A DNA stretch of 20,301 nucleotides. It comes from a virus. This document shows, piece by piece, positions 3,522-20,301 of this stretch. The notes under the pieces are model-generated. The model had not been told where the DNA came from, made no database searches, and worked only from the letters and a program-made list of their open reading frames with translations. A program made the position numbers and the translations under genes. The stretch lies in the IMG/VR virus record IMGVR_UViG_3300032050_001029, positions 1 to 20,301 of that record, one strand, 5' to 3'. How positions within the stretch are numbered: the first letter of the stretch is position 1; each line of letters begins with the position of its first letter.

Positions 3522-3529
3522 TATTTATG
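3522..3529 (-). promoter_or_regulatory. Possible T4-type late promoter upstream of gp8
   Basis: On the minus strand this reads CATAAATA, 7 of 8 bases of the T4 late consensus TATAAATA. It lies about 16 bases before the gp8 start and contains the TAA stop codon of the gp7-like gene. In T4 such elements are read by gp55 with gp33 and the sliding clamp. In an AT-rich genome chance matches are expected, so this rests on its position and on the similar element before gp25. Confidence 0.4.
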
Positions 3530-6500
3530 TGGTAGAATACCCAATGTACTTTAATCTAGTAAATCTTTGAACTATTGGTGAAGTTGTTATTCCACCAACA
3601 TTTGCATATGATGTAAATTCTTGTGGATCTTTTCTAGTCGGTACTGAAATCCTTCCCCAACTATATTTCCCATAAAAATTACTAAATCCAAGACCACTTA
3701 AACCATTATATCCAGAAACACTTACTGTTACCTTAGTAACATTTGTAATTCCAACTCCAGCAACTGCAGTTTGTGCTATAGAAACTGCTGCAACTTGATA
3801 AATGTTATCAATAAATGTAGACCCAACTCCAACTATACCTCCTAGAGAATTTCGAGAGGTTAATCCCTTTCCAACATTTGATTCACTGACTACAAAATAA
3901 TATCCAGTTTTTATTCCACTAATCCCAGTTGTCGCAACACCAACACTTACAACATCACTATTTCTTAAAACCGAATCTTTAGGGATGAATAAATCAAATA
4001 CAATTCCAGTAGAGGCAACCCCAACAGATGTTGTTTTAATTCCGGTAATGATACCGAAATCCCCCTCATAAGATACTTTGTCTATTACTTCATATTTTAC
4101 ACTAGGAGATTCGAAGAGAACAATGGGTGGTTCAATAGAGTTATATCCAAATCCACCTGTGGTTATTGCCACAGATGAAACTGATCCGTTAGTAATTATT
4201 GCTTTTGCCTCAGCAACTCCAGTAGAACCTATTCCAATCGGATAGGATATTGAAATAGATGGTGTTGTGGAATATCCAACCCCCCCATCAGAAATATTAA
4301 CAGATGTAATAGTTCCTGATGTAGAAACAGTTACTGTTGCAGATGCAGCAACTAAAGAATCTTGGGAGACGATTAAAATTTTATTTTGCGGTTTTTCGGT
4401 TGTACCATCGTGAGTATATTCTTTTTCGCTGTCAAAAAATGTCTTAACACTTTCGACAAAAATTGTATTTGATGTAATTCCAATATTTTGAATAATATTT
4501 GTGGTTGGTTGTATATATGGTTCATAGATTGTTCTATTCTTTCCAATTTTCTTTCCATTAATGACTAAATCATTTGTTTGGCGACACCAAGTTAGTGGTC
4601 TTAGCAAATTATCATTTTTAGTTATTCCTGGACCAGAATATAAATTAGTAGAAACTATATCTGAAGAGATGATATCATAAACTAATCTATTATTTTCTGA
4701 CAACTTAATGTCATCGCTATTTAAAGTTACAAAATCTCCAGACTTAATGGTTTCTAGTATGTCTACATCTTGAGTATCTACATTAGATGTTCCTCTATAG
4801 AATAGAATTTTACACCTATCTCCTTCTTTTGGAGATTCAGTAAATCTAATAGTGCTTCCACCATTAAAAATGTATCCTTTTCCTGGAACTTGTAATACAT
4901 CATTAATAAAAATTAACAGAGTTGCTTGAACATCAATATTTGATCCTTTTTTAGATCTAATTGTAGTTTGATTTCCATCAATAAGAATTGGGAAAGAAGT
5001 TCTTTGTCCATCAAATAAAGATTCTATAGAATCAATAACCTGTAAATTTCCAATTGCCCAAGCATTAAATTGATCCGAATATGTGTTATCAATGGAAATT
5101 TGAAATTCGGAAAAAGTCAATGTTGTATTTGTTGCAATTCCTGTTGTTCCTCCTATAGAGACGGTTAAAATTTCATTTTGCTTATATCCATACCCAAGAT
5201 TTGACAATTCAAATGAAATTACGCTCGATCCTTGACCTACAATGATATTAACTTTTGCCCCAGTTCCAACTCCAGATGGAGACTTTGAACTGTAAATTAG
5301 CGGAATATTTGAATATGAAAGTGGTGAATCAAAAACTACTATGGGTGGATTTGTTGAAGTATATCCAATACCTGGATTTGTAATTGCAACACTTATTACA
5401 CGACCATTACTTATTGAAGCTATTCCAATAAATTCAATATTTGGAATTCCTACACTTTCTGTTTGTACCCCAACTCTAACCATAGTTTGTATACCAGATC
5501 TATATCCAGATCCACTGTTTCCAATACTAATTGATTGAATTGTTCCTGCAGATGATACAACTGCTGTCGCTCCCGCAGAAACGAGAGGTTGATACCCAAA
5601 TCCTTGTGTTGATGCAATAGAAAGAATGACACCTCCCCTAGGAATACTTGCATAATTTATGTCATAATTTACTGAGGTAGCAGATCCAATAAAGGAAACA
5701 GAAGTTATTCCGCTAGTTTCCACCAAATCATAATCACTAGTTGCAGATGGGTCATAAGGTGCTTGGAATATATTATTGATTAATAAAACCGCATTATCAG
5801 TGGATATTCCAGTTATATTTGAACTATTAGATTTTAAAATAAAATCAGTATCTATTCCATTAAATTGGTTGGAAATGTCATCAAAAATAATGTTATTACT
5901 GTATGGTTCTTGCAATGTATCAAAATCTGCTGTTCTTAAAAATACTCTTCCACTAAAAGAAGAACCTGTTGAAATGCCAATATAGTCAATTTCATCAGGT
6001 CTGTTTGATTGATTTTGTATTGGAGTTTGTCCATATGGAGCTTCTGAAAAGTGTAAAGTATTATCAATTATATTATAATTTCCTGTAACTTTAGTCACTA
6101 GAGAAGAAGAAGCGTGTGTAGATAATCCTGTACCTAGCCAAGGTCTTTGTACAAAAATAGAGTTTGTGCTTCCTACGCCTACGGCAGTAATTTTCATAAT
6201 CTCATTATCAATTTTAATAAGATCTCCACCAAAAATTGATTTGGTGTTTGAAACATATATTTGAGAATCAAAAAATCCAACAGAATTTGATAGTATTGTT
6301 GTAGAAGATGTTGAAATGATTGGTGATTGTATTAAATTATCAATACCCAATATTACCTTTTTATTTTGATTTTTGGAGATAAATACGTGCGAGTTTCCAA
6401 TACCACCAACTGAGGTTAAATCTAAAATATTTGGAATTGATTTAAGTGCATTTGATGAAGATGCTGCAACTTTTACATCTAAATCATTCAATTTTACAAT

Positions 6501-9500
6501 ATATAATGTGGATGGAAGTTTGTCCGTAACTCCTATTCCTGGAATAGATGTTGTTGCAATTCCAATTGAGTTTGATGTTCCATCTCCAGGACTTAAATAT
6601 GTTATTTCTTCTCCCGTAACATAAAAATTATTTGGAATTCTAATAACATTATCTGCAACCCTAACGATATTTGGATTGCTGCCATCAAAATATCTTTTAA
6701 ATATGGGTAAATTTTTATGAGTTAGATTAAAACTTTTTGCTATGTCGTTATCGGTTCCACTATAATTACCATAATCATAATTAATAGCCCCATTATTCAA
6801 AGAAATTTCTGAAAAATCTTCACTTAATCCAATATCAACTTTAAAGACCCTAACCTCAACATTTGCGTTTTTAATGGGAGTGAAATAAATTACAGTATTT
6901 GTACCGGATATTCCTGAGGTTATTATTCCCAGAGAAGAATTTGTCTGCAAAATTCCAAATTCAGAGATATAAGATTCGTTTTGATTTGAAACAGTTAAAA
7001 ATTCTGAAATTTGATATTGAGAATTAGTTTTATCCTCAATACTAAAAATACAATATGAGCAATTATATTCACTATTATTATAACTTGAAATTATATTTGC
7101 AGTTGGAGAAGGTGATGATGATATTGAAATAAGTGAAGAATTTGCCGAACTTCCCCCAACCAATACAGTCCCAATTCCGGATGAATTTGAATTTCCTATT
7201 GATACATTGAAAGTATTTACAATATAATCAATACTAGTGCTATTATTGGGAATTAAATCAATTTTTACTTCTGATCCTGAGATATATGCATTATATGTAC
7301 CTATTCCGGAAGTCGATTTTGAAATGAAATTATCAGTAGTAAGTTGTCCAAAGTCTATAAAATAGACATTTGTATTGTCATGAATATATGTTATTTCATC
7401 ATATTGATAATATGAAGAATCTGTTGCTCCAATTTGTACAAGGACTTTGGATGATCTATATGTTGATGCAATACCAACAATTGTAGTTGAGCTAGTAGTT
7501 CCTGTTGGAATAATTTGAGTATTTGTATTAATATTACATACATTGCCAAGATTAATTGTTCCGATTCCACTTGTAATATCATTTAAAGAGAAAGAAAAAA
7601 TTTCTGCATAGTAGTCATTATATTTTGATTTTACTGGATAAAATAATAGATTTCCCTCAGTTCCGGATATATTAAAATCAAAAAATCCTAAATTATCTAT
7701 CGAATTTAAACTATATTGGTTAATAAATCCTATACTATCATTATGAAGTAATGATATAATATTGAGTTGCTGCTCGTATGAGTATTTTTTATCTTGAACA
7801 AGTAATATATATTTTTTAGATCTAAAATCAGATAATGTAAATGAATCAACGATACTAAATTTGGTTGATCTAAAGTTATTGTTAAATTGAGTAGAAATAT
7901 CGTCAATCACAAGAACTCTATTTCCAATAGACTCAATATAATCTTGTACAATTTTTGAATTTAAAGTAATTTCATTAGATTTTAAAGAACCGTCAATATT
8001 GAGATTATTTTCTTTAGCAAGATCAAAATCATAAACACAATTTAAATCAATAGTTCTTGATAGATCTGCAATTCCAACAAAATCTCCTTGATTTTGGTCA
8101 GTTGAAATTCCAGAATTAATTGGAGTTGATTCGATAATCAAATCACTAAACTTCTTAAATCCTGCAGTATGATTTAATGAATTTACTGAATCTGCCCAAG
8201 TATCTAAATCTTTTTGAGATTTTAATGCATATGAAAAATACTGATAATAATCACTATCATGAACTCTTTGAAAATCATTATTTAAAAATCCAGTTTCTTT
8301 GTTCCATCCCTTTCTGTTTAAGGAAGAAGAATCTACTTTATAATTGGAGTTAAATCTTATTATTTCTCTAATAATTCCTACAGTAGATGAAGTTTTTCCT
8401 TTTATAGTTTGATTTAGTTCAAAATCTTCTAATGCAGAAACTTTTAGATATTGATTTGAAGAATCCCAAGACTCAACGATTCCTTCTGCAGAAGATGAAT
8501 ATATTTTTTCTCCTTTATAATAATCTTTCTTTTTAAGAACCGGGTTAAAAATTGGAAAATCAGACTCTGGAATTATTCTTCCAGAAGAATTAAATTTATT
8601 AAAATTGCCGGGAATTTGTCCATCTTCTAAGTATGATGATAAATTATAAGCAACAGTTGCTCCAATTCCACCGATATTTGGATCAATAGAAGTTATTGTA
8701 AATAATGAATAATTATACTTGGAAGAATTGTATCCTCTTCCTGTCGTTGCTATTCCAACACTTATACCTTCAATCAAAACTTTTCCACCAATAAAAAATG
8801 GGAAATCTTCGGGATTACTAAAACTTGCACCTAAAGTTACAATTACGTCTTTTGTTAAATTATTAAATTGAATATTAGTAATTCCAATTCCATTAGTGTT
8901 ATTTGTTGGAATAATTATAGGAGTAACATTGCTAATCTGTGAACTATTATTGATGATTGTTACTTTTGAATCTCCAATAGAATATAATAATTCAACATCG
9001 TCAATAATTTTATTTGTGGATCCATCAATAACCACTAGAGATGGAGATATAGAATAATTTCTTCCAAAAGAACTAACTCCAATATAATCAAAAGTTGATA
9101 AGGAATCCAACACCAAAATTGTTGGTAACTTTGAAGTCGGTCTAACGCTATAATCTGAAGGATATTCAAATCCAATATCCTGTAAATCAATTGAAATAAT
9201 TTTTCCAATAGAATTTGTATCAGGTATTAAAATAGATCCACTACCAAGATTAGAAGAAACGGAGGTAATTCCCGGTAAGGTGCTGTAGTTTTTACCTCCA
9301 CTTAGTATAGAAATCTTATGTATTGGTCCAGATGCAGATTTAGAATTTGTATAATATTTGACCCCTCCCAAGTATGAATTTGATTCTGGATAATTTAAAA
9401 CATTATATTTAAACGTTGTGGATGTTATTCCAATAATATTATATTTTCCGTTATAATCACTTTCTACGATTGAAATTTTATTTGACCCCAAAACATCAGC

Positions 9501-12500
9501 ATCTATTACTATTTCTTTTTTAAATTGGGAGTTCAAACTTAAATTTATCGGAACTATATTATAATATAAAACATCAGGAACCTTGTCATTTATAGTTAAA
9601 ATAACATTTGCAGTTGAATCAATACCTATTTTACCATTTCTCAGTACTTCAAAAATAGAAGATGACGATGTAGTGTCAAACTCATCTTTAAATAATTCGT
9701 CTGTGTAAAATTTAAAATCAAAGGCAGAATATGTATTTCCAACACTGATAAATGATAGTGATGTATCGGATAGATCAAATATTAAACTCTGATTCTTTAC
9801 AATTTTTATTGGTGGATTAATCGGACAAATATTTCCTGAAGTTGATGATAGAATGCTAATTGTATTTGGAACTTGTTTAACTGAATCGTAGTAAGTATTG
9901 GATAATTTAATTTTATTTGCATCAACAGTGACCACATAGTACATGTTTTCATTTACTAATCCAACTGCTGGGGTATTTGAAGTGTATAAAACTTTTTGTC
10001 CCGTATAATATCCATGATTATTGATTATAATAGTACTATCATCAGTACCAATACTTGAAAAAGATCTTGGATTAACTAACAACCTTCTATTATAATCATC
10101 ATACTTTACGGACAAAGTTGTTGAAATTCCTGGTTTTGCATCAATGATTACATTATCTAATAAAGAAAGACCATGAGTTTCTGCAGTAGAAACTGTTACT
10201 ACATTTTTACTAATTTGTCCTAGTAAAGTATTTGTAAAATTAGTTTTAAAACTATGAATATTTCCTGTCCCAACGGATGTAAAATATAATAATCCTGCAT
10301 TTGATGACGATCCCATGGAAACAAAAGTTCCTGTTGATCCTAGTCCAACTTTGATGGTTGAAATTCCAATTAAATCATTAGAAATTTTTGCGGCATAAAC
10401 AATAGATTTTTCCCCTAGTTGGAAAGATGAAGATCCATTAGTAGAAACTGAAATTCTAGATCCACCATTTGCCGAATAAATTAGAGAATCTCCGTTGTTT
10501 AAATTATGATCTTTAATATAAATTGATCGAGTTGGAATTGTAATTTGAGTAATCCCTACTCCTGGATTGGAAAAATAAAGAGTGCTAACTATTCCGACTC
10601 CAGAAGTTGTTCCTAATCCAACTGTTTCTTTAGGATTAAAATAAAATTCCTCATTAACATTAAAATTATATGAGGTTGAAATTCCAAAATTAATTCCAAA
10701 TTTACTTGATTTTTCAGTTAACCCTATTCCAGAAGAATATGATGATAATCCAATTGTGTTATTTTGATTGCGAAGTACCCTTATCCTTGAAGATTGTTGA
10801 TCTATACCCAAAATCTTTACTTGTTCATTTCCAATTTGGTAAATATCATTTTCCTTTATATTTGGATAATTTAAATTTCCAAAAACATCAAAATAAGTTA
10901 CAATCCCAGTATATTGTGCCGATCCAACTCCAGAAATTAATGTAAGTGTATTATATAATACTGTTATATTTCCAGATTTTTTGTAATCATATTTTCCAGT
11001 AAAAGTTAATAAGTCATTGTTTAAAAAATCGTGAGGTATTGTTGTAAATCCTATAAATTTATCATTACTTGAGTAGATTGCAACATCCTCAAATGTCAAA
11101 GTTTCGCATGAAATGCTATCTACAGATTTTCCTTCAATTAAAGAAATTTTTGCTTTTGGTTTAAATACTTCTTTCGAATCGACATCAAAGATTATACTGT
11201 CACCTACACTATAATCTTGCCCTGCGCTCAAAATATCAATAGTGTCTACGGAACCTTTGGAAACACTTTTAATAATAGAACTTTGAGATCTTATTTCATT
11301 TGGTTTTAGTAAATAGTCATATGAAGAAATATTATATGGAGTTATATTCCTTTTCCATTTGGTTTGATTTATATCAATATAGTCTTGTGATGAAGATTTT
11401 GAAAAATTAAAGTCAATTGGTTTCGATTTATACGAATTTCCTATCACATAAGGAAAAATTGGTTTCTTATAATTCTCAAATAATCCTGTTGTTTCTAAAG
11501 GACCATCACTAACTGCAGTAAAATATGCATAAATGCCATTTGGATATTCTGGGGTAACTGCAAATCTACCATTATGTTCATCCAAATCTCCATTATTTGT
11601 AAATGTGTAGTCTTCTATAAAAAATCCTTGTGGATACAGTGAAACACTTGGTCTGTTATTCTTTAGGGATAATTCATATCCAGAATTTAAAGATTTGACG
11701 GCACCACCAGTTTTGGATGAATAACCATATGGTCCATAAATTGGATTTCCGTCATATGCCCATCCAATAATAGGGGAATGTGCTACTGATGTTTGTTCCC
11801 TACCATCCAGTAATTGTAAATCTATAGAGTATACTGTTTTTCCTTGCCTAAAACTTGTAGACTGAACTGAAGATCTTAGATGTCTCGGGACATATGCATG
11901 GACATACTCTAATCCATAATCATTATTTAATCCAGAAGTTAAAATACCATCATCATTTTTTATTTGGGATGTATACAAAAGTCTTTCAACTAAATTAATT
12001 TTCCAAGATTTTATTTGCGATTCAAATTTAGCCCCACTACCAGATGCAATTACGTTAATAAAAGTATTTTTTTGTTCGTATCCAATTCCACCATAGATTA
12101 CTTTGATTTCTGTTAGAGAACCATTCGAAAGAATTGGAGTCAGTATTGCTCCAGTACCAACACCAATAATATTGAGATTTGGTGGAGAATTGTATCCACT
12201 TCCAGAACTATTAATTACTACATCTACTATTTGCCCATTTGATACAATTGGTTTTATTTGAATTCCTGATCCAGAATTTAGTTCAAAAAGTGGTTGCCTG
12301 CTATAGTTAAGTATTTCTTCAGATCCATACTTTATTCCTCCAGATTTTACAAATACTGATTGAATTTCTCCTCTAAAAACTGGTTGAATAATAGCATTAA
12401 AATCTTTTCCCGAAAGAGTAGAGATGCCGATTTTGCCATTAATAGATACCTGTATATCTGGATAATTGAATTTGTGAATACCAGTTCCACTTGAGGTTAA

Positions 12501-15470
12501 GTTAATATATTGCTTAGTATCATAATATAGAGATGTTGTAATACCAAGTGTTCCAACCCCAATCTGAGATAATTTAAAATTATTATCATCTACTTTTGTT
12601 ACATAATATGAGGTAGAAGAAGATAGACCACCTATTGAAGTTTCTGTTGAATTATATGTAACAATTTCTCCGCTTTGATATCCATGATTGTTGATATTGA
12701 TACTATCAATAGATGTACTAATACCACTACTTGAAGTTGTTGTTAATTTATTTTGATATCCTTCCCCTCCATTTTCTATTGTTATAGATCCTATTTTTTT
12801 CTTTTTATTTTTAGATTTAAATGAATGATTTCCTATACCATAAGAAGTTAATTGAATAGTATTAATACCACTAACAGCATCTGAAAATGATTTATGCAGA
12901 TTAATATCAAATGTATTTTGGACCGAAACAAAATATGAAGAATTTGTTGACAATCCAGAAATTGCTTTTTGACCATCTGTTATGTAAATGACCTCTTCTA
13001 TATCTCTAAATTTATGATAACTAGAAAATCCAATAGTGTTTGTTGGGTTTAACTTAACGGCACCTGCATTTGCTTGAGAATTGAAATTAACTTCATGATC
13101 AAAACTAACTAAGTTTGCTTTAGCAGAAGCTCCAAATCCATTACCACCAGTAATACTAATTACAGGATCTTCTAGGTAATCAAATCCGGGATCTAGAATA
13201 TCAATTCTGGAAAGTTCTCCAATAATTGAACAATACCCCTCTGCACCCGATCCTATTGGATCTATAATTGATAAAGTGGGTGGATTGATTACATCATATC
13301 CAGATCCTGGAGAAGTGGGAATAATATTTTCTATTGGACCATAAAAAACATTATCGTTTGATTTATAATTAAGTACCTCAACTCCATTTATAAAAATACC
13401 AGTCAATCCCGGATTAGTTTCATATACCGCGGCAGTATTTTCTGGAATTGAAATTTTTCTAATTAATTTTTGAGACTCTAGTAGTTGAGTACTCAAATCC
13501 CTATAAGTGAATTCCGTAAGTTCAAAAGTAGCATTGATAACAGTTCCATTTACAGAAATAAAATTGCCAGTAAAAATATTACTCCTACTTCTTGCTAATT
13601 TTAACCTAGTTTCATCTATTTTTTTGACAAAATAAACACCCGTTGATATCCCTAAAGTGTTATTTGTGGATGGTTTATAAACAATTGAGTCTCCTGTATA
13701 AAATCCATGAGAAAATGTCGTATCTATTATTTCTCCACTAAATGTTCCACTGAATGTTATTGATCTATCATTGATTTTTAATTGCGTATTTAAGTATGAT
13801 GGAAGAGATGGTGACGTAACGTATAAAGATTCTTCATCGTCAATATAAACATTTTGAACATTTGAAGTATATTGATTAACTGAGGGATAATTTTCTGTAG
13901 TTACTTTTGATAAATTTTTTCTAGCAATGTAAATAGAATTAACATTTAATGGAGAAATTTCTGATCCAAATTGAATACTAAAAGATTTTTCATTATTGAA
14001 AGAAGTTACGTTTCCAGTATATTCAAATGATGAAGAAGAAATTAAAGTTACAGAATCTCCAATTTTGAAAAAATGGTTAGTATTAGTATCGACCTTGTAA
14101 GATCGATCCGAAATATCTAAAAGTGTAATAGAAGCAACATCATATTTTGTAGGTATGTTGAAGAACCAATTATTCAATTTATAATCTTTTAAATCTGCTC
14201 CCAGAGTTTTTATCTTTACAGAATCTCCTTTGGAGTAAAGACGAGTATTAGTTGGATATTCTAATTCTGATAAAACTCCCAAAATTCTAATTTTTATAAT
14301 TTCATTAGAATCATATCCATAGGCAAAAAAGTTTGATTTTATTTCTGTTGCTTCAGAAATATCTTGAATTATTCCACTACATCCCAAAAATTGATTTAAT
14401 GTTTTTGATTCATATGTTACATCTAAAGAAGTTCCGTTTCCCAATTCAATTAATAGATTTCCATTTTTACTTGGGAATGCAACTGTAGAATCGACTTCTA
14501 GTGTCTGTGACCCAGATTTTATTGTAGTGACAACTCTAGTCTTTGGATGGATGTTAAATTTCCCGTAAACACTCCCTCTTGTTTGAATATCTTTATCATA
14601 TCCAGAATCTAAACTTAGAACGTAATATTCTTTTTCCCCTCTTCTAATCTTTTCAACCTTTGTGATTGTTCCCTGAGCGGCATTTATAAATTCATTTTTA
14701 TCCTGATAAAGAGTTTTATTTACCAAATTCTTTGGATCACCTTCAATAGATTCCACTACAAAATCTGATGTAATTCTGTAGTCTGCATCTGATGGTTGAA
14801 TTAAATAATCTCTAGGTTTTATAATATCTACATTTTGTCCAAATAATGCTTTAAATAGAATTTTAAATGATTTATCAGTTCCTTTTGATGAATAAAAATC
14901 TATAGATTGTTTAATAAAAATATTTTCATTCAAACTAGAATATAATTCTCTATTTTCAAATCCTGGAGTAAATTGTTTTTTTATTTTAACTAAAAATTCT
15001 TTCAGAAAAAGAATACTTAAATTAGAAACAGTAGAGTTTGTACTATGTTCTTCAGAATTTGTTTCTTTAAATGTTAATTCATCATATTTCTCAGTGTGCG
15101 ACGTAACGCCATTAAATCCACGAACGCACCCATTGAATGATGTAGAAGTTTTTGAGGTATATGTAATGATTTCAGAATCGATTAAGATTAGTCCATATGA
15201 ATCGGGAAATCCTGACGTAGAATCTACATTTATTGTAGAATCAAAGAAAGTTACATCAGATGTTAAAAATGTTGAATCAATTAAATTTGTTAAATTATCA
15301 ACCTTAATATACTGATCTATGTTCTGAAGTATATCACTTGTTCCACCTTGATTTTCTAATGAAACGTAGTATTGAGATAAAAATTCAGAGGCAAGAGGAA
15401 ACTCCTCCAAAACATATTGTGGAAGTTGATTTTCAATAATTGAACTGATTTTAATTCTGGTTTCTTTCAT
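3525..15470 (-). CDS. 7: Giant gp7-like baseplate wedge protein with repeat-module extension and YHYH domain
   Basis: The product has 3,981 residues, against about 1,030 for T4 gp7. Residues 188-215 contain SIDFYSSKGTDKSFKILFKA, which matches SYDFYSTKGIEASYKFLFKV near residue 700 of T4 gp7. The following NLVNKTLYQ corresponds to DLVGQTIYT in T4. The conserved C-terminal core of gp7 is therefore at the N-terminus here. The N-terminal beta-propeller-like part of T4 gp7 is missing, and about 3,650 residues are added. The extension holds recurring modules: NHGYxxGExVxY units ending in YYVxxVD (for example residues 922-972 and 1813-1863); GGxGY strands (713-793, 1035-1147, 3282-3385, 3708-3788); and an LIDSEIITYTS type (90-125, 3076-3110). 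A YHYH-type domain lies at about 1190-1345, with HSPIIGWAYDGNPIYGPYGY. T4 gp7 links wedge proteins; the extension may decorate the baseplate or contact the host, which is inference. The gene starts 4 bases after the gp6 stop and is continuous, without a frameshift. Confidence 0.85.
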   Translation of the reverse strand: MKETRIKISSIIENQLPQYVLEEFPLASEFLSQYYVSLENQGGTSDILQNIDQYIKVDNLTNLIDSTFLTSDVTFFDSTINVDSTSGFPDSYGLILIDSEIITYTSKTSTSFNGCVRGFNGVTSHTEKYDELTFKETNSEEHSTNSTVSNLSILFLKEFLVKIKKQFTPGFENRELYSSLNENIFIKQSIDFYSSKGTDKSFKILFKALFGQNVDIIKPRDYLIQPSDADYRITSDFVVESIEGDPKNLVNKTLYQDKNEFINAAQGTITKVEKIRRGEKEYYVLSLDSGYDKDIQTRGSVYGKFNIHPKTRVVTTIKSGSQTLEVDSTVAFPSKNGNLLIELGNGTSLDVTYESKTLNQFLGCSGIIQDISEATEIKSNFFAYGYDSNEIIKIRILGVLSELEYPTNTRLYSKGDSVKIKTLGADLKDYKLNNWFFNIPTKYDVASITLLDISDRSYKVDTNTNHFFKIGDSVTLISSSSFEYTGNVTSFNNEKSFSIQFGSEISPLNVNSIYIARKNLSKVTTENYPSVNQYTSNVQNVYIDDEESLYVTSPSLPSYLNTQLKINDRSITFSGTFSGEIIDTTFSHGFYTGDSIVYKPSTNNTLGISTGVYFVKKIDETRLKLARSRSNIFTGNFISVNGTVINATFELTEFTYRDLSTQLLESQKLIRKISIPENTAAVYETNPGLTGIFINGVEVLNYKSNDNVFYGPIENIIPTSPGSGYDVINPPTLSIIDPIGSGAEGYCSIIGELSRIDILDPGFDYLEDPVISITGGNGFGASAKANLVSFDHEVNFNSQANAGAVKLNPTNTIGFSSYHKFRDIEEVIYITDGQKAISGLSTNSSYFVSVQNTFDINLHKSFSDAVSGINTIQLTSYGIGNHSFKSKNKKKKIGSITIENGGEGYQNKLTTTSSSGISTSIDSININNHGYQSGEIVTYNSTETSIGGLSSSTSYYVTKVDDNNFKLSQIGVGTLGITTSLYYDTKQYINLTSSGTGIHKFNYPDIQVSINGKIGISTLSGKDFNAIIQPVFRGEIQSVFVKSGGIKYGSEEILNYSRQPLFELNSGSGIQIKPIVSNGQIVDVVINSSGSGYNSPPNLNIIGVGTGAILTPILSNGSLTEIKVIYGGIGYEQKNTFINVIASGSGAKFESQIKSWKINLVERLLYTSQIKNDDGILTSGLNNDYGLEYVHAYVPRHLRSSVQSTSFRQGKTVYSIDLQLLDGREQTSVAHSPIIGWAYDGNPIYGPYGYSSKTGGAVKSLNSGYELSLKNNRPSVSLYPQGFFIEDYTFTNNGDLDEHNGRFAVTPEYPNGIYAYFTAVSDGPLETTGLFENYKKPIFPYVIGNSYKSKPIDFNFSKSSSQDYIDINQTKWKRNITPYNISSYDYLLKPNEIRSQSSIIKSVSKGSVDTIDILSAGQDYSVGDSIIFDVDSKEVFKPKAKISLIEGKSVDSISCETLTFEDVAIYSSNDKFIGFTTIPHDFLNNDLLTFTGKYDYKKSGNITVLYNTLTLISGVGSAQYTGIVTYFDVFGNLNYPNIKENDIYQIGNEQVKILGIDQQSSRIRVLRNQNNTIGLSSYSSGIGLTEKSSKFGINFGISTSYNFNVNEEFYFNPKETVGLGTTSGVGIVSTLYFSNPGVGITQITIPTRSIYIKDHNLNNGDSLIYSANGGSRISVSTNGSSSFQLGEKSIVYAAKISNDLIGISTIKVGLGSTGTFVSMGSSSNAGLLYFTSVGTGNIHSFKTNFTNTLLGQISKNVVTVSTAETHGLSLLDNVIIDAKPGISTTLSVKYDDYNRRLLVNPRSFSSIGTDDSTIIINNHGYYTGQKVLYTSNTPAVGLVNENMYYVVTVDANKIKLSNTYYDSVKQVPNTISILSSTSGNICPINPPIKIVKNQSLIFDLSDTSLSFISVGNTYSAFDFKFYTDELFKDEFDTTSSSSIFEVLRNGKIGIDSTANVILTINDKVPDVLYYNIVPINLSLNSQFKKEIVIDADVLGSNKISIVESDYNGKYNIIGITSTTFKYNVLNYPESNSYLGGVKYYTNSKSASGPIHKISILSGGKNYSTLPGITSVSSNLGSGSILIPDTNSIGKIISIDLQDIGFEYPSDYSVRPTSKLPTILVLDSLSTFDYIGVSSFGRNYSISPSLVVIDGSTNKIIDDVELLYSIGDSKVTIINNSSQISNVTPIIIPTNNTNGIGITNIQFNNLTKDVIVTLGASFSNPEDFPFFIGGKVLIEGISVGIATTGRGYNSSKYNYSLFTITSIDPNIGGIGATVAYNLSSYLEDGQIPGNFNKFNSSGRIIPESDFPIFNPVLKKKDYYKGEKIYSSSAEGIVESWDSSNQYLKVSALEDFELNQTIKGKTSSTVGIIREIIRFNSNYKVDSSSLNRKGWNKETGFLNNDFQRVHDSDYYQYFSYALKSQKDLDTWADSVNSLNHTAGFKKFSDLIIESTPINSGISTDQNQGDFVGIADLSRTIDLNCVYDFDLAKENNLNIDGSLKSNEITLNSKIVQDYIESIGNRVLVIDDISTQFNNNFRSTKFSIVDSFTLSDFRSKKYILLVQDKKYSYEQQLNIISLLHNDSIGFINQYSLNSIDNLGFFDFNISGTEGNLLFYPVKSKYNDYYAEIFSFSLNDITSGIGTINLGNVCNINTNTQIIPTGTTSSTTIVGIASTYRSSKVLVQIGATDSSYYQYDEITYIHDNTNVYFIDFGQLTTDNFISKSTSGIGTYNAYISGSEVKIDLIPNNSTSIDYIVNTFNVSIGNSNSSGIGTVLVGGSSANSSLISISSSPSPTANIISSYNNSEYNCSYCIFSIEDKTNSQYQISEFLTVSNQNESYISEFGILQTNSSLGIITSGISGTNTVIYFTPIKNANVEVRVFKVDIGLSEDFSEISLNNGAINYDYGNYSGTDNDIAKSFNLTHKNLPIFKRYFDGSNPNIVRVADNVIRIPNNFYVTGEEITYLSPGDGTSNSIGIATTSIPGIGVTDKLPSTLYIVKLNDLDVKVAASSSNALKSIPNILDLTSVGGIGNSHVFISKNQNKKVILGIDNLIQSPIISTSSTTILSNSVGFFDSQIYVSNTKSIFGGDLIKIDNEIMKITAVGVGSTNSIFVQRPWLGTGLSTHASSSLVTKVTGNYNIIDNTLHFSEAPYGQTPIQNQSNRPDEIDYIGISTGSSFSGRVFLRTADFDTLQEPYSNNIIFDDISNQFNGIDTDFILKSNSSNITGISTDNAVLLINNIFQAPYDPSATSDYDLVETSGITSVSFIGSATSVNYDINYASIPRGGVILSIASTQGFGYQPLVSAGATAVVSSAGTIQSISIGNSGSGYRSGIQTMVRVGVQTESVGIPNIEFIGIASISNGRVISVAITNPGIGYTSTNPPIVVFDSPLSYSNIPLIYSSKSPSGVGTGAKVNIIVGQGSSVISFELSNLGYGYKQNEILTVSIGGTTGIATNTTLTFSEFQISIDNTYSDQFNAWAIGNLQVIDSIESLFDGQRTSFPILIDGNQTTIRSKKGSNIDVQATLLIFINDVLQVPGKGYIFNGGSTIRFTESPKEGDRCKILFYRGTSNVDTQDVDILETIKSGDFVTLNSDDIKLSENNRLVYDIISSDIVSTNLYSGPGITKNDNLLRPLTWCRQTNDLVINGKKIGKNRTIYEPYIQPTTNIIQNIGITSNTIFVESVKTFFDSEKEYTHDGTTEKPQNKILIVSQDSLVAASATVTVSTSGTITSVNISDGGVGYSTTPSISISYPIGIGSTGVAEAKAIITNGSVSSVAITTGGFGYNSIEPPIVLFESPSVKYEVIDKVSYEGDFGIITGIKTTSVGVASTGIVFDLFIPKDSVLRNSDVVSVGVATTGISGIKTGYYFVVSESNVGKGLTSRNSLGGIVGVGSTFIDNIYQVAAVSIAQTAVAGVGITNVTKVTVSVSGYNGLSGLGFSNFYGKYSWGRISVPTRKDPQEFTSYANVGGITTSPIVQRFTRLKYIGYSTT
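4105..4345 (-). repeat. Tandem GGxGY glycine-rich repeats near the gp7-like C-terminus
   Basis: Two units lie side by side here: SVNISDGGVGYSTTPSISIS, then SVAITTGGFGYNSIEPPIVL. A matching pair lies at about 5315-5625 (ISIGNSGSGYRSG and VAITNPGIGYTSTNPPIVVF). The second unit of each pair is similar in DNA as well as protein. Further relatives occur at about 12030-12365 and 13090-13330, and in gp8. Confidence 0.7.
9880..10030 (-). repeat. Coding repeat copy, NHGY module (gp7-like residues ~1813-1863)
   Basis: This is the closest relative of the copy at 12555-12705. It shares INNHGY, a G-(E/Q)-x-V-x-Y strand, a YYVxxVD strand and a final KLS. Spacing between the strands is nearly the same in both copies, about 50 residues in total, as expected for a small beta domain used repeatedly. 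Confidence 0.7.
11440..11900 (-). other. YHYH-type domain inside the giant gp7-like protein
   Basis: This segment codes for about residues 1190-1345. It contains HSPIIGWAYDGNPIYGPYGY, a hallmark of the YHYH domain family. It is followed by HNGRFAVTPEYPNGIYAYFT and ends near FPYVIG, the usual order in that family. YHYH domains are found in secreted bacterial proteins and in some large phage structural proteins; their biochemical role is not settled. Repeat modules flank it on both sides. Confidence 0.7.
12555..12705 (-). repeat. Coding repeat copy, NHGY module (gp7-like residues ~922-972)
   Basis: This codes for INNHGYQSGEIVTYNS, then GLSSSTSYYVTKVDDNNFKL. A second copy at about 9880-10030 codes for INNHGYYTGQKVLYTS and MYYVVTVDANKIKLS. 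Looser copies lie at about 13575-13715 (FSHGFYTGDSIVY), 10340-10520 (DHNLNNGDSLIY) and 6420-6640 (NNFYVTGEEITY). The two best copies also agree at DNA level around TATCCATGATT, which suggests duplication within the gene. Confidence 0.7.
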
Positions 15471-19682: not shown

Positions 19683-19711
19683 ATTTTATCGTTCTATTTA
19701 GTATTTGTCAA
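19683..19711 (-). promoter_or_regulatory. Sigma70-like promoter for the glycosyltransferase-like gene
   Basis: The minus strand has TTGACA (19711-19706), a 17-base spacer and TAAAAT (19688-19683). The -35 box is perfect, the -10 box has 5 of 6 bases, and the spacing is ideal. The expected start of transcription is near 19676, about 18 bases before the ATG. The -35 box begins just after the stop codon of the 66-residue gene. The host polymerase could read it, which suggests early expression. Confidence 0.7.
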
Positions 19712-19936: not shown

Positions 19937-20143
19937 TTATTTCGTCACTGCATTATATATTGTTACTATCAGTATTCCAATGGGCACACCAAAAATTCTT
20001 AGCATCTTTCCAGGATAGCGTATTAACCACCCTGCGAAAACTACTTTCCAAAAATTCCAATACGGTTTTCTGCGGGGGTTTTTGGTGCTTTTCATACTCC
20101 GGAAAAATTTTATGAGATTGATATTGATCTCGCGTTTTGTCAC
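19937..20143 (-). CDS. Small membrane protein of unknown function (68 residues, start uncertain)
   Basis: The frame ends with TAA at 19937. The C-terminal half, MLRIFGVPIGILIVTIYNAV, is a likely membrane segment, preceded by WNFWKVVFAGWLIRYPGK, a second partly hydrophobic stretch. The Lys/Arg-rich part before it (KSTKNPRRK) suggests the N-terminus stays inside the cell. The longest form starts at GTG 20143. The alternative ATG 20095 gives 52 residues with GGAG only one base upstream, too close for a good site. Neither start is clearly better. The frame beginning at 20246 overlaps this gene but would start inside the -10 box of the promoter at 20242-20271, so this frame is preferred. Its end carries the promoter for the next gene. 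Function unknown. Confidence 0.6.
   Translation of the reverse strand: MTKREININLIKFFRSMKSTKNPRRKPYWNFWKVVFAGWLIRYPGKMLRIFGVPIGILIVTIYNAVTK
19952..19980 (-). promoter_or_regulatory. Sigma70-like promoter for the 66-residue gene
   Basis: The minus strand has TTGGAA (19980-19975), a 17-base spacer and a perfect TATAAT (19957-19952). Transcription would start near 19945, about 28 bases before the ATG at 19917. It sits inside the end of the upstream membrane-protein gene. Confidence 0.6.
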
Positions 20144-20241
20144 CTCTGTAGGTTAGGGACTTATCGATTTTTATAAACGCAACGCCCCGCGACGATATAA
20201 ACGAACGGCCATAAAACACTGCTGAATCACTATCCTGACAC

Positions 20242-20271
20242 AGCATAACATAAGCGCCCCCAGAGTGTCAA
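20242..20271 (-). promoter_or_regulatory. Sigma70-like extended -10 promoter for the membrane-protein gene
   Basis: The minus strand has a perfect TTGACA (20271-20266), an 18-base spacer and TATGCT (20247-20242). The -10 box is preceded by TG one base upstream (TGTTATGCT), an extended -10. Transcription would start near 20234 and leave a leader of about 90 bases before GTG 20143. The -35 box lies mostly in the loop of the hairpin at 20256-20282. Confidence 0.65.
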
Positions 20272-20282
20272 ACTCCGAGGGC
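20256..20282 (-). terminator. Hairpin, probable terminator of an upstream minus-strand gene
   Basis: The minus-strand transcript can form an 11-pair stem: GCCCUCGGAGU against ACUCUGGGGGC, with a 5-base loop and two G-U pairs. On the plus strand those two positions become A-C mismatches, so the structure suits minus-strand RNA. No clear T-run follows, so termination is not certain. It would end a gene lying beyond the right edge. Confidence 0.5.
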
Positions 20283-20301
20283 ATCCAACTATCAGAAATC
20301 A

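Follow-up and report, generated by a model that had tools for sequence, protein, structure and literature searches.

A probable composite terminator-promoter with its -35 box at the hairpin loop in a T4-like cyanophage contig

The locus and its genomic context

The window analysed here is an entire IMG/VR record of 20,301 bases (IMGVR_UViG_3300032050_001029). Homologues of the T4 baseplate wedge proteins gp25, gp6 and gp8 are encoded on its minus strand, and its named-phage matches are cyanophages and marine viruses; the window is a contig of a T4-like cyanophage. Between the gp6 and gp8 homologues, positions 3525-15470 of the minus strand form one ORF of 3981 aa. Close to the other end of the record, with its stem starting 18 nt from the contig end, lies a hairpin that shares its bases with a promoter (Table 1). 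Rfam returned no matches on the window at the gathering threshold. At E of at most 1 across five loci there was one match, to a nematode snoRNA, which scored below gathering, lay about 3 kb from the element and was rejected.

The minus strand from 20283 to 20255 reads 5'-TGCCCTCGGAGT-TTGAC-ACTCTGGGGGCG-3' and folds with TTGAC as the loop. A sequence-only reading of this DNA had described an 11-pair hairpin with two G-U pairs; this was confirmed, with a twelfth pair if the outer U-G is counted and both G-U pairs internal. The same reading had placed TTGACA in the loop, which holds for its first five bases, while the sixth lies within the stem. The extended -10 box it proposed was found 18 bases from TTGACA, as a TATGCT hexamer (20247-20242) with TG ahead, giving the sigma70-type promoter TTGACA-18-TGTTATGCT with 10/12 matches. 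Directly after the stem, the minus strand continues as CTTATGTTATGCT. An intrinsic terminator consists of a GC-rich stem and then a U-tract. Here, the calculated folding energy is -19.7 kcal/mol for minus-strand RNA versus -13.2 kcal/mol for plus-strand RNA, in keeping with the proposal that the G-U pairs favour the minus-strand transcript, and the U-tract formed by the tail CTTATGTTAT is interrupted, with 5 T in 8, so that the stop may be leaky.

Table 1. Features of the hairpin-promoter element and the adjoining leader (window coordinates).
Feature	Position	Strand	Basis
TGA stop codon of a small upstream ORF (ORF body outside the window)	20292..20294	-	L003 identical to the window here
Stem-loop, proposed to terminate the upstream message or form its RNA 3' end	20255..20283	-	Sequence; pairing kept in relatives
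-35 box TTGACA (first five bases form the loop)	20266..20271	-	Hairpin centre in 48/76 relatives' promoters, among the matches listed
U-tract CTTATGTTAT 3' of the stem, imperfect, overlapping the extended -10	20245..20254	-	Sequence
Extended -10, TG-T-TATGCT	20242..20250	-	18-nt spacer to the -35
Predicted transcription start, about 7 nt past the -10	20235	-	Predicted from the hexamers
TATAAAAA, late-promoter-like, in the leader	20168..20175	-	Likeness to late consensus
CCTAACCTACAGAGGTGACA, conserved intergenic leader motif, anchor of the syntenic comparison	20138..20157	-	Present in relatives

This hairpin ranked top of the 12 terminator-like sites that a scan found in the window (6.2 in shuffles). 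Promoter-like sites of the window showed no excess as a class, with 112 found versus 116.5 in shuffles, and the promoter call therefore rests on comparison with relatives. We defined the element as a hairpin of at least 9 pairs, at least 5 of them G-C, over TTGAC and with a -10 in place. Such an arrangement occurs once in the window and in none of 1000 dinucleotide-shuffled windows. The central claim of the sequence-only reading, that hairpin and promoter share the same bases, is confirmed for the window: the overlap is real. Another promoter-like site (TTGACA-17-TAAAAT, 11/12) lies at 19683-19711 on the minus strand, about 25 nt before the phrog_1574 gene, and the matching place in S-SM2 (59175), Bellamy (74129) and P-TIM68 (58562) carries TTGACA-17-TATAAT.

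The identical element is present in three further IMG/VR contigs (L003, L004 and L005). In L003, which reaches further upstream, 8 nt separate the end of an intact 46-aa ORF (603-743) from the stem. The hairpin is thus preceded by a stop codon, and the promoter faces the next genes. The window and L003 are identical over their first 125 nt, which take in the stop codon, hairpin, promoter and start of the leader, and are 81.7% identical over 1637 nt with those 125 nt included. An exact scan of IMG/VR with the 15-mer GGAGTTTGACACTCC returned 59 stretches and was set aside, most of them being chance matches without the extended stem; a few of the matches in other phages resemble real hairpins with T-runs.

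The downstream leader and the syntenic spot in relatives

Downstream of the promoter lies a leader that is conserved among marine cyanomyoviruses by BLAST. Its match falls outside annotated features in 10 of 13 phage records and under a hypothetical protein in two; one record is unannotated. The motif CCTAACCTACAGAGGTGACA also occurs at S-SM2 58851, Bellamy 73827 and S-SCSM1 2196, with a TATAAAA-like stretch about 10 nt ahead of it in most of the aligned rows. Its core CCTAACCTACA was found in 10 of 12 cyanophage genomes, once in nine and twice in SynMITS9220M01, whose second copy lies in sequence that does not resemble the leader; there was no copy in RB49, T4, KVP40 or Aeh1, some of these being partial. 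The late promoter consensus is given as NATAAATA in the available part of PMC2984593. The leader carries an indel at window positions 20161-20176, where the TATAAAAA stretch is absent in L003 and a different AT-rich stretch stands in L005, with the flanks alike in both. Among 27 sequences, the leader showed four invariant pairs and no covariation as a structured RNA. A coding role seems unlikely, as in-frame stops and an invariant base at the would-be third position of one frame speak against it (frames read by eye). A PMC full-text search with the letters of the motif returned no paper. The motif may be a late promoter with a fixed start region, an origin or a protein site.

Searching IMG/VR with the anchor motif CCTAACCTACAnAGGTGACA yielded at least 120 stretches (L180-L299); the pattern is exact over 19 of its 20 bases, and the invariance of the leader there is thus a product of data selection. 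From the matches listed we obtained 111 unique sequences at the syntenic spot, which are related and not independent, and called a promoter at 9 or more of 12 matches. By this definition, a promoter is present in 76 of the 111 sequences, among the matches listed. The hairpin-plus-TTGACA combination, which the sequence-only reading had proposed looking for elsewhere in the genome and in relatives, occurs only once in the window and is frequent at this spot: a hairpin is centred on the -35 in 48 of the 76 promoters among the matches listed, compared with a mean of 10.0 (sd 2.7, maximum 18) when the hexamers were held fixed and the flanks shuffled 200 times. These 48 hairpins, again among the matches listed, have 38 different 5' arms. 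When the -35 was required to lie wholly within the loop and either wobble was allowed, the count was 49 of 74 distinct promoters among the matches listed (15.0 in 100 shuffles, maximum 24).

The strongest control exchanged arms between loci, in sequences that had been included irrespective of hairpins. Left in place, the arms of 36 of the 74 promoters pair in runs of 6 or more and those of 28 of the 74 in runs of 8 or more, among the matches listed. With the 3' arms dealt among loci 500 times, the means fell to 12.2 (maximum 21) and 5.4 (maximum 13), respectively. The arms match their own partners and not arms from other loci. Together with the shuffles, this supports the view that the pairing is kept by selection. 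Twelve hairpins (11 distinct) share a register and align without gaps, with 96.7% of cells paired, compared with 43-56% when the partner is slid by 1-3 columns. Eight of their 11 pairs have changed on both sides, which 0 of 500 shuffles reach, a result that illustrates rather than proves since the twelve rows were picked for pairing.

Individual phages show how freely the letters vary. The spot reads GCGGGG...TTGACATCAG...CCCCGT in S-SM2, GGCGGG-GGTTTACATT-CCCGCC in SynMITS9220M01 and GGGCAG-GTTGTTGACAGT-CTGCCC in AG-345-E15, and the U-tract is poor in all three. Tail T content hardly differs at this spot between hairpin loci (3.88/9) and promoter-only loci (3.26/9), among the matches listed. 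S-SCSM1 and S-SSM7 have a plain hairpin whose loop lacks TTGACA, and in Bellamy and P-TIM68 the promoter is present but no good hairpin overlaps it, indicating that the overlap is not obligatory. A total of 128 loci entered the classification and eight with short upstream sequence were dropped; the remaining 120, among the matches listed and with near-identical loci (e.g., L219/L224) unmerged, comprise 49 with hairpin and promoter, 34 with a promoter but without such a hairpin and 37 without a recognised promoter.

The stems also discriminate between the two strands. In the 49 stems among the matches listed, G-U outnumbers A-C by 77 to 8 (binomial p 5e-5, computed on related sequences); shuffles already give 72% G-U, so that composition explains part of the excess but not all of it. 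This excess argues that the hairpin is selected as RNA of the minus strand and not just as a DNA palindrome, as had been supposed from the two G-U pairs of the window.

Upstream of the stem, an ORF ends within 2-61 nt in 46 of the 49 loci with hairpin and promoter and within 33 nt in 41 of them, among the matches listed, versus 29% and 11% at random points in the same loci. An ORF end directly upstream of the stem is the placement that a terminator needs. The upstream ORF was taken as the longest of at least 30 aa in any frame; the pick in L003 is in the wrong frame, and those in L071 and L281 look alike in this respect. By blastp, the upstream ORFs fall into 11 clusters beside one leader, of which the L003/L281 and L071 clusters are actual or apparent wrong-frame picks, and the leader is common to all loci by construction, since it served as the anchor.

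Hairpin placement in cyanophages and other T4-like phages

Across twelve cyanophage genomes (three partial; 911 promoters), 25 strong hairpins have their centre no more than 7 nt from a -35 box, compared with a mean of 4.8 and a maximum of 8 in 10 shuffles. Seventeen of the 25 have the loop form, with the hairpin centre within 2.5 nt of the -35 centre, and in seven others the -35 lies within the stem or abuts it. Each genome holds between 0 and 4 such -35-centred hairpins, with unlike stems within one genome; Syn9 has -35-in-stem cases only, and the genome-wide scan found no -35-centred hairpin in S-CRM01. Clean T-runs follow the same loop geometry elsewhere, at S-SM2 167151, S-SCSM1 146713, and P-SSM4 173779 and 40542, and a clean T-run also follows the -35-centred hairpin at Bellamy 184228. 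Other hairpin positions are in excess too, above all the stretch 30-50 nt downstream of the -35, where RNA is predicted to start (28 versus 3.7 in shuffles), and that 40-60 nt upstream of the -35 (18 versus 5.7). Cyanophage promoters thus have hairpins in several placements, the -35-loop form among them.

The composite signal itself is common to T4-like phages, with the overlap placed differently. In contrast to the loop position seen here, hairpins lie on the spacer (12) or the -10 (12) in RB49 (116 promoters) and on the -10 (6) in T4 (56 promoters), and KVP40 (71 promoters) has the -35 in the stem, in seven near-identical copies. In Aeh1 (160 of 233 kb) they are mostly on the -10 or upstream, with one loop form. 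The KVP40 hairpins have the form AAAGGGTTGAC-n4-GTCA(G/A)CCCTTT and lie on the plus strand at 21147, 59699, 85859, 97800, 100194, 121377 and 150227. In T4, TTTACA promoters carry hairpins of at least 14 pairs centred at or close to the -10, at 20611, 57989, 65798, 123092 and 136335 of the minus strand.

These signals recall the promoter-early stem-loops (PeSLs), in which a strong sigma70-type promoter overlaps an effective terminator in intergenic positions among small variable genes. PeSL copies are many and alike, are dense in hyperplastic regions and have been proposed as junctions of modular exchange. Arbiol and colleagues in 2010 and Comeau and colleagues in 2014 (in Genome Biol Evol) are said to have described them as composite promoter-terminators in RB49/phi1 and other T4-like phages. 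The cyanophage element is alike in that a sigma70-type promoter and a stem-loop share bases in an intergenic position where the neighbouring genes of relatives differ. By sequence the promoter is a strong one (TTGACA-18-TGTTATGCT), the stem-loop overlaps it in the relatives counted above, and the ORF ends just upstream of the stem correspond to a setting between small variable genes. The copies, however, are neither many nor alike, with 0-4 per cyanophage genome and unlike stems as against 24 on the spacer or -10 in RB49, and the element is therefore not filed as a full PeSL. As to exchange junctions, we found one exact junction (L213/L242) and one island of identity (window/L003), and the other close pairs are without a break at the stem.

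An early promoter and potential stem loops have been described in the ORFanage region of S-PM2, in the available part of Puxty et al. (2015; PMC4503421). That part gives the PeSL density in S-PM2 as much lower than in other T4-like phages and considers this route unlikely, and its account of the S-PM2 PeSLs does not include the -35-in-loop form. It was also the only place where our literature search for a cyanophage version met PeSLs in a cyanophage; an earlier description of the -35-in-loop form, for instance in the 2010 and 2014 papers, is possible.

Interpretation and alternatives

Considering the arrangement of the sequence and its conservation, we interpret the element as a probable composite terminator-promoter of a T4-like cyanophage (probability about 0.77). 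A chance overlap of a terminator with promoter-like sequence would agree with the chance-level number of promoter-like matches in the window as a class, but the shuffled windows never reproduced the element, and the relatives lie above both shuffles and swapped arms. The 48 of 76 syntenic promoters with a centred hairpin, among the matches listed, against a shuffle maximum of 18, together with the arm-swap control, refute this explanation and leave it a negligible probability. Inverted repeats over a -35 box are a usual operator position, and the palindrome could accordingly be a repressor operator or a cruciform acting as DNA. That reading is largely refuted by the excess of G-U over A-C and by the diversity of the 5' arms among the matches listed, which leaves no common site for a sequence-reading protein; we regard it as extremely unlikely.

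Two further explanations were considered. In one, which follows a proposal made for PeSLs, selection would retain the element chiefly as a site of homologous recombination between phages, and its effects on termination and initiation would come second. Between the leader motif and the first base of the stem, L213 and L242 agree throughout (0 mismatches, 99 nt), and downstream they differ at 7 of 3322 nt; over the 200 nt upstream their identity is 0.62 (random pairs: mean 0.54, 95th percentile 0.73). Their identity thus ends at the first stem base and is at random level upstream, which points to an exchange junction at the hairpin, and L213 shares its upstream part with L206 and its downstream part with L242. 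The identical 125 nt of the window and L003 and the variety of upstream ORF clusters beside one leader, wrong-frame picks included, are in line with this explanation. However, a break at the stem is seen in one of seven close pairs, which makes it an example and not a rate, and where both members have hairpin and promoter, one pair breaks and two run on. The stems are also unlike between loci and among the copies of a single genome, a poor basis for homologous pairing, and the part in common is the downstream leader; a main role in exchange is very unlikely. In the other explanation the hairpin is not a terminator but stabilises the 3' end of the upstream RNA or serves in its processing, and it overlaps the promoter for compactness only. 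This would account for U-tracts that are poor at the syntenic spot in spite of selection on the RNA strand, but elsewhere in cyanophage genomes clean T-runs come after hairpins of this loop geometry, and we judge the explanation unlikely.

If the element is a composite terminator-promoter, RNA of the upstream small gene would fold into the hairpin just past its stop codon, where transcription would stop or pause. In the DNA, the loop would serve as the -35 and the descending arm as the spacer, and the T-rich tail would hold the extended -10. A host sigma70-type polymerase would then begin the next message some 20 nt downstream, and this message would run through the conserved leader into the small genes, the phrog_1574 gene and the baseplate genes (gp25, gp6 and others). 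Lying ahead of the start site, the hairpin would be part of the upstream message only and never of the new one. The element stands where a variable block of small genes gives way to the conserved structural block, and may allow either side to be swapped with transcription of the other side unharmed.

A closer coupling of the two signals is also conceivable. RNA polymerase that is kept on the DNA after intrinsic termination can restart nearby, according to the available parts of two single-molecule studies of bacterial polymerase (PMC6978380, PMC6978322). A terminator that contains a promoter would offer such an enzyme a very short path, a link to the present element that we draw from this general bacterial work. 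A relay, in which the polymerase ending the upstream message is released onto the embedded promoter and restarts after picking up sigma, is in our estimate quite unlikely. If true, the strength of the upstream early operon would set the output of the downstream operon, and selection on the hairpin would be for positioning the released enzyme at the -35 and -10, beyond insulating two operons.

The comparative evidence, in which the letters of the stem are free while its pairing and the central -35 are kept, suggests that a terminator-like hairpin and a promoter are selected as a unit. The idea of the composite promoter-terminator would extend to cyanophages, with a different overlap geometry. 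The variants at this one spot form a natural series in which termination, occlusion and re-initiation may be measured within less than 45 bp.
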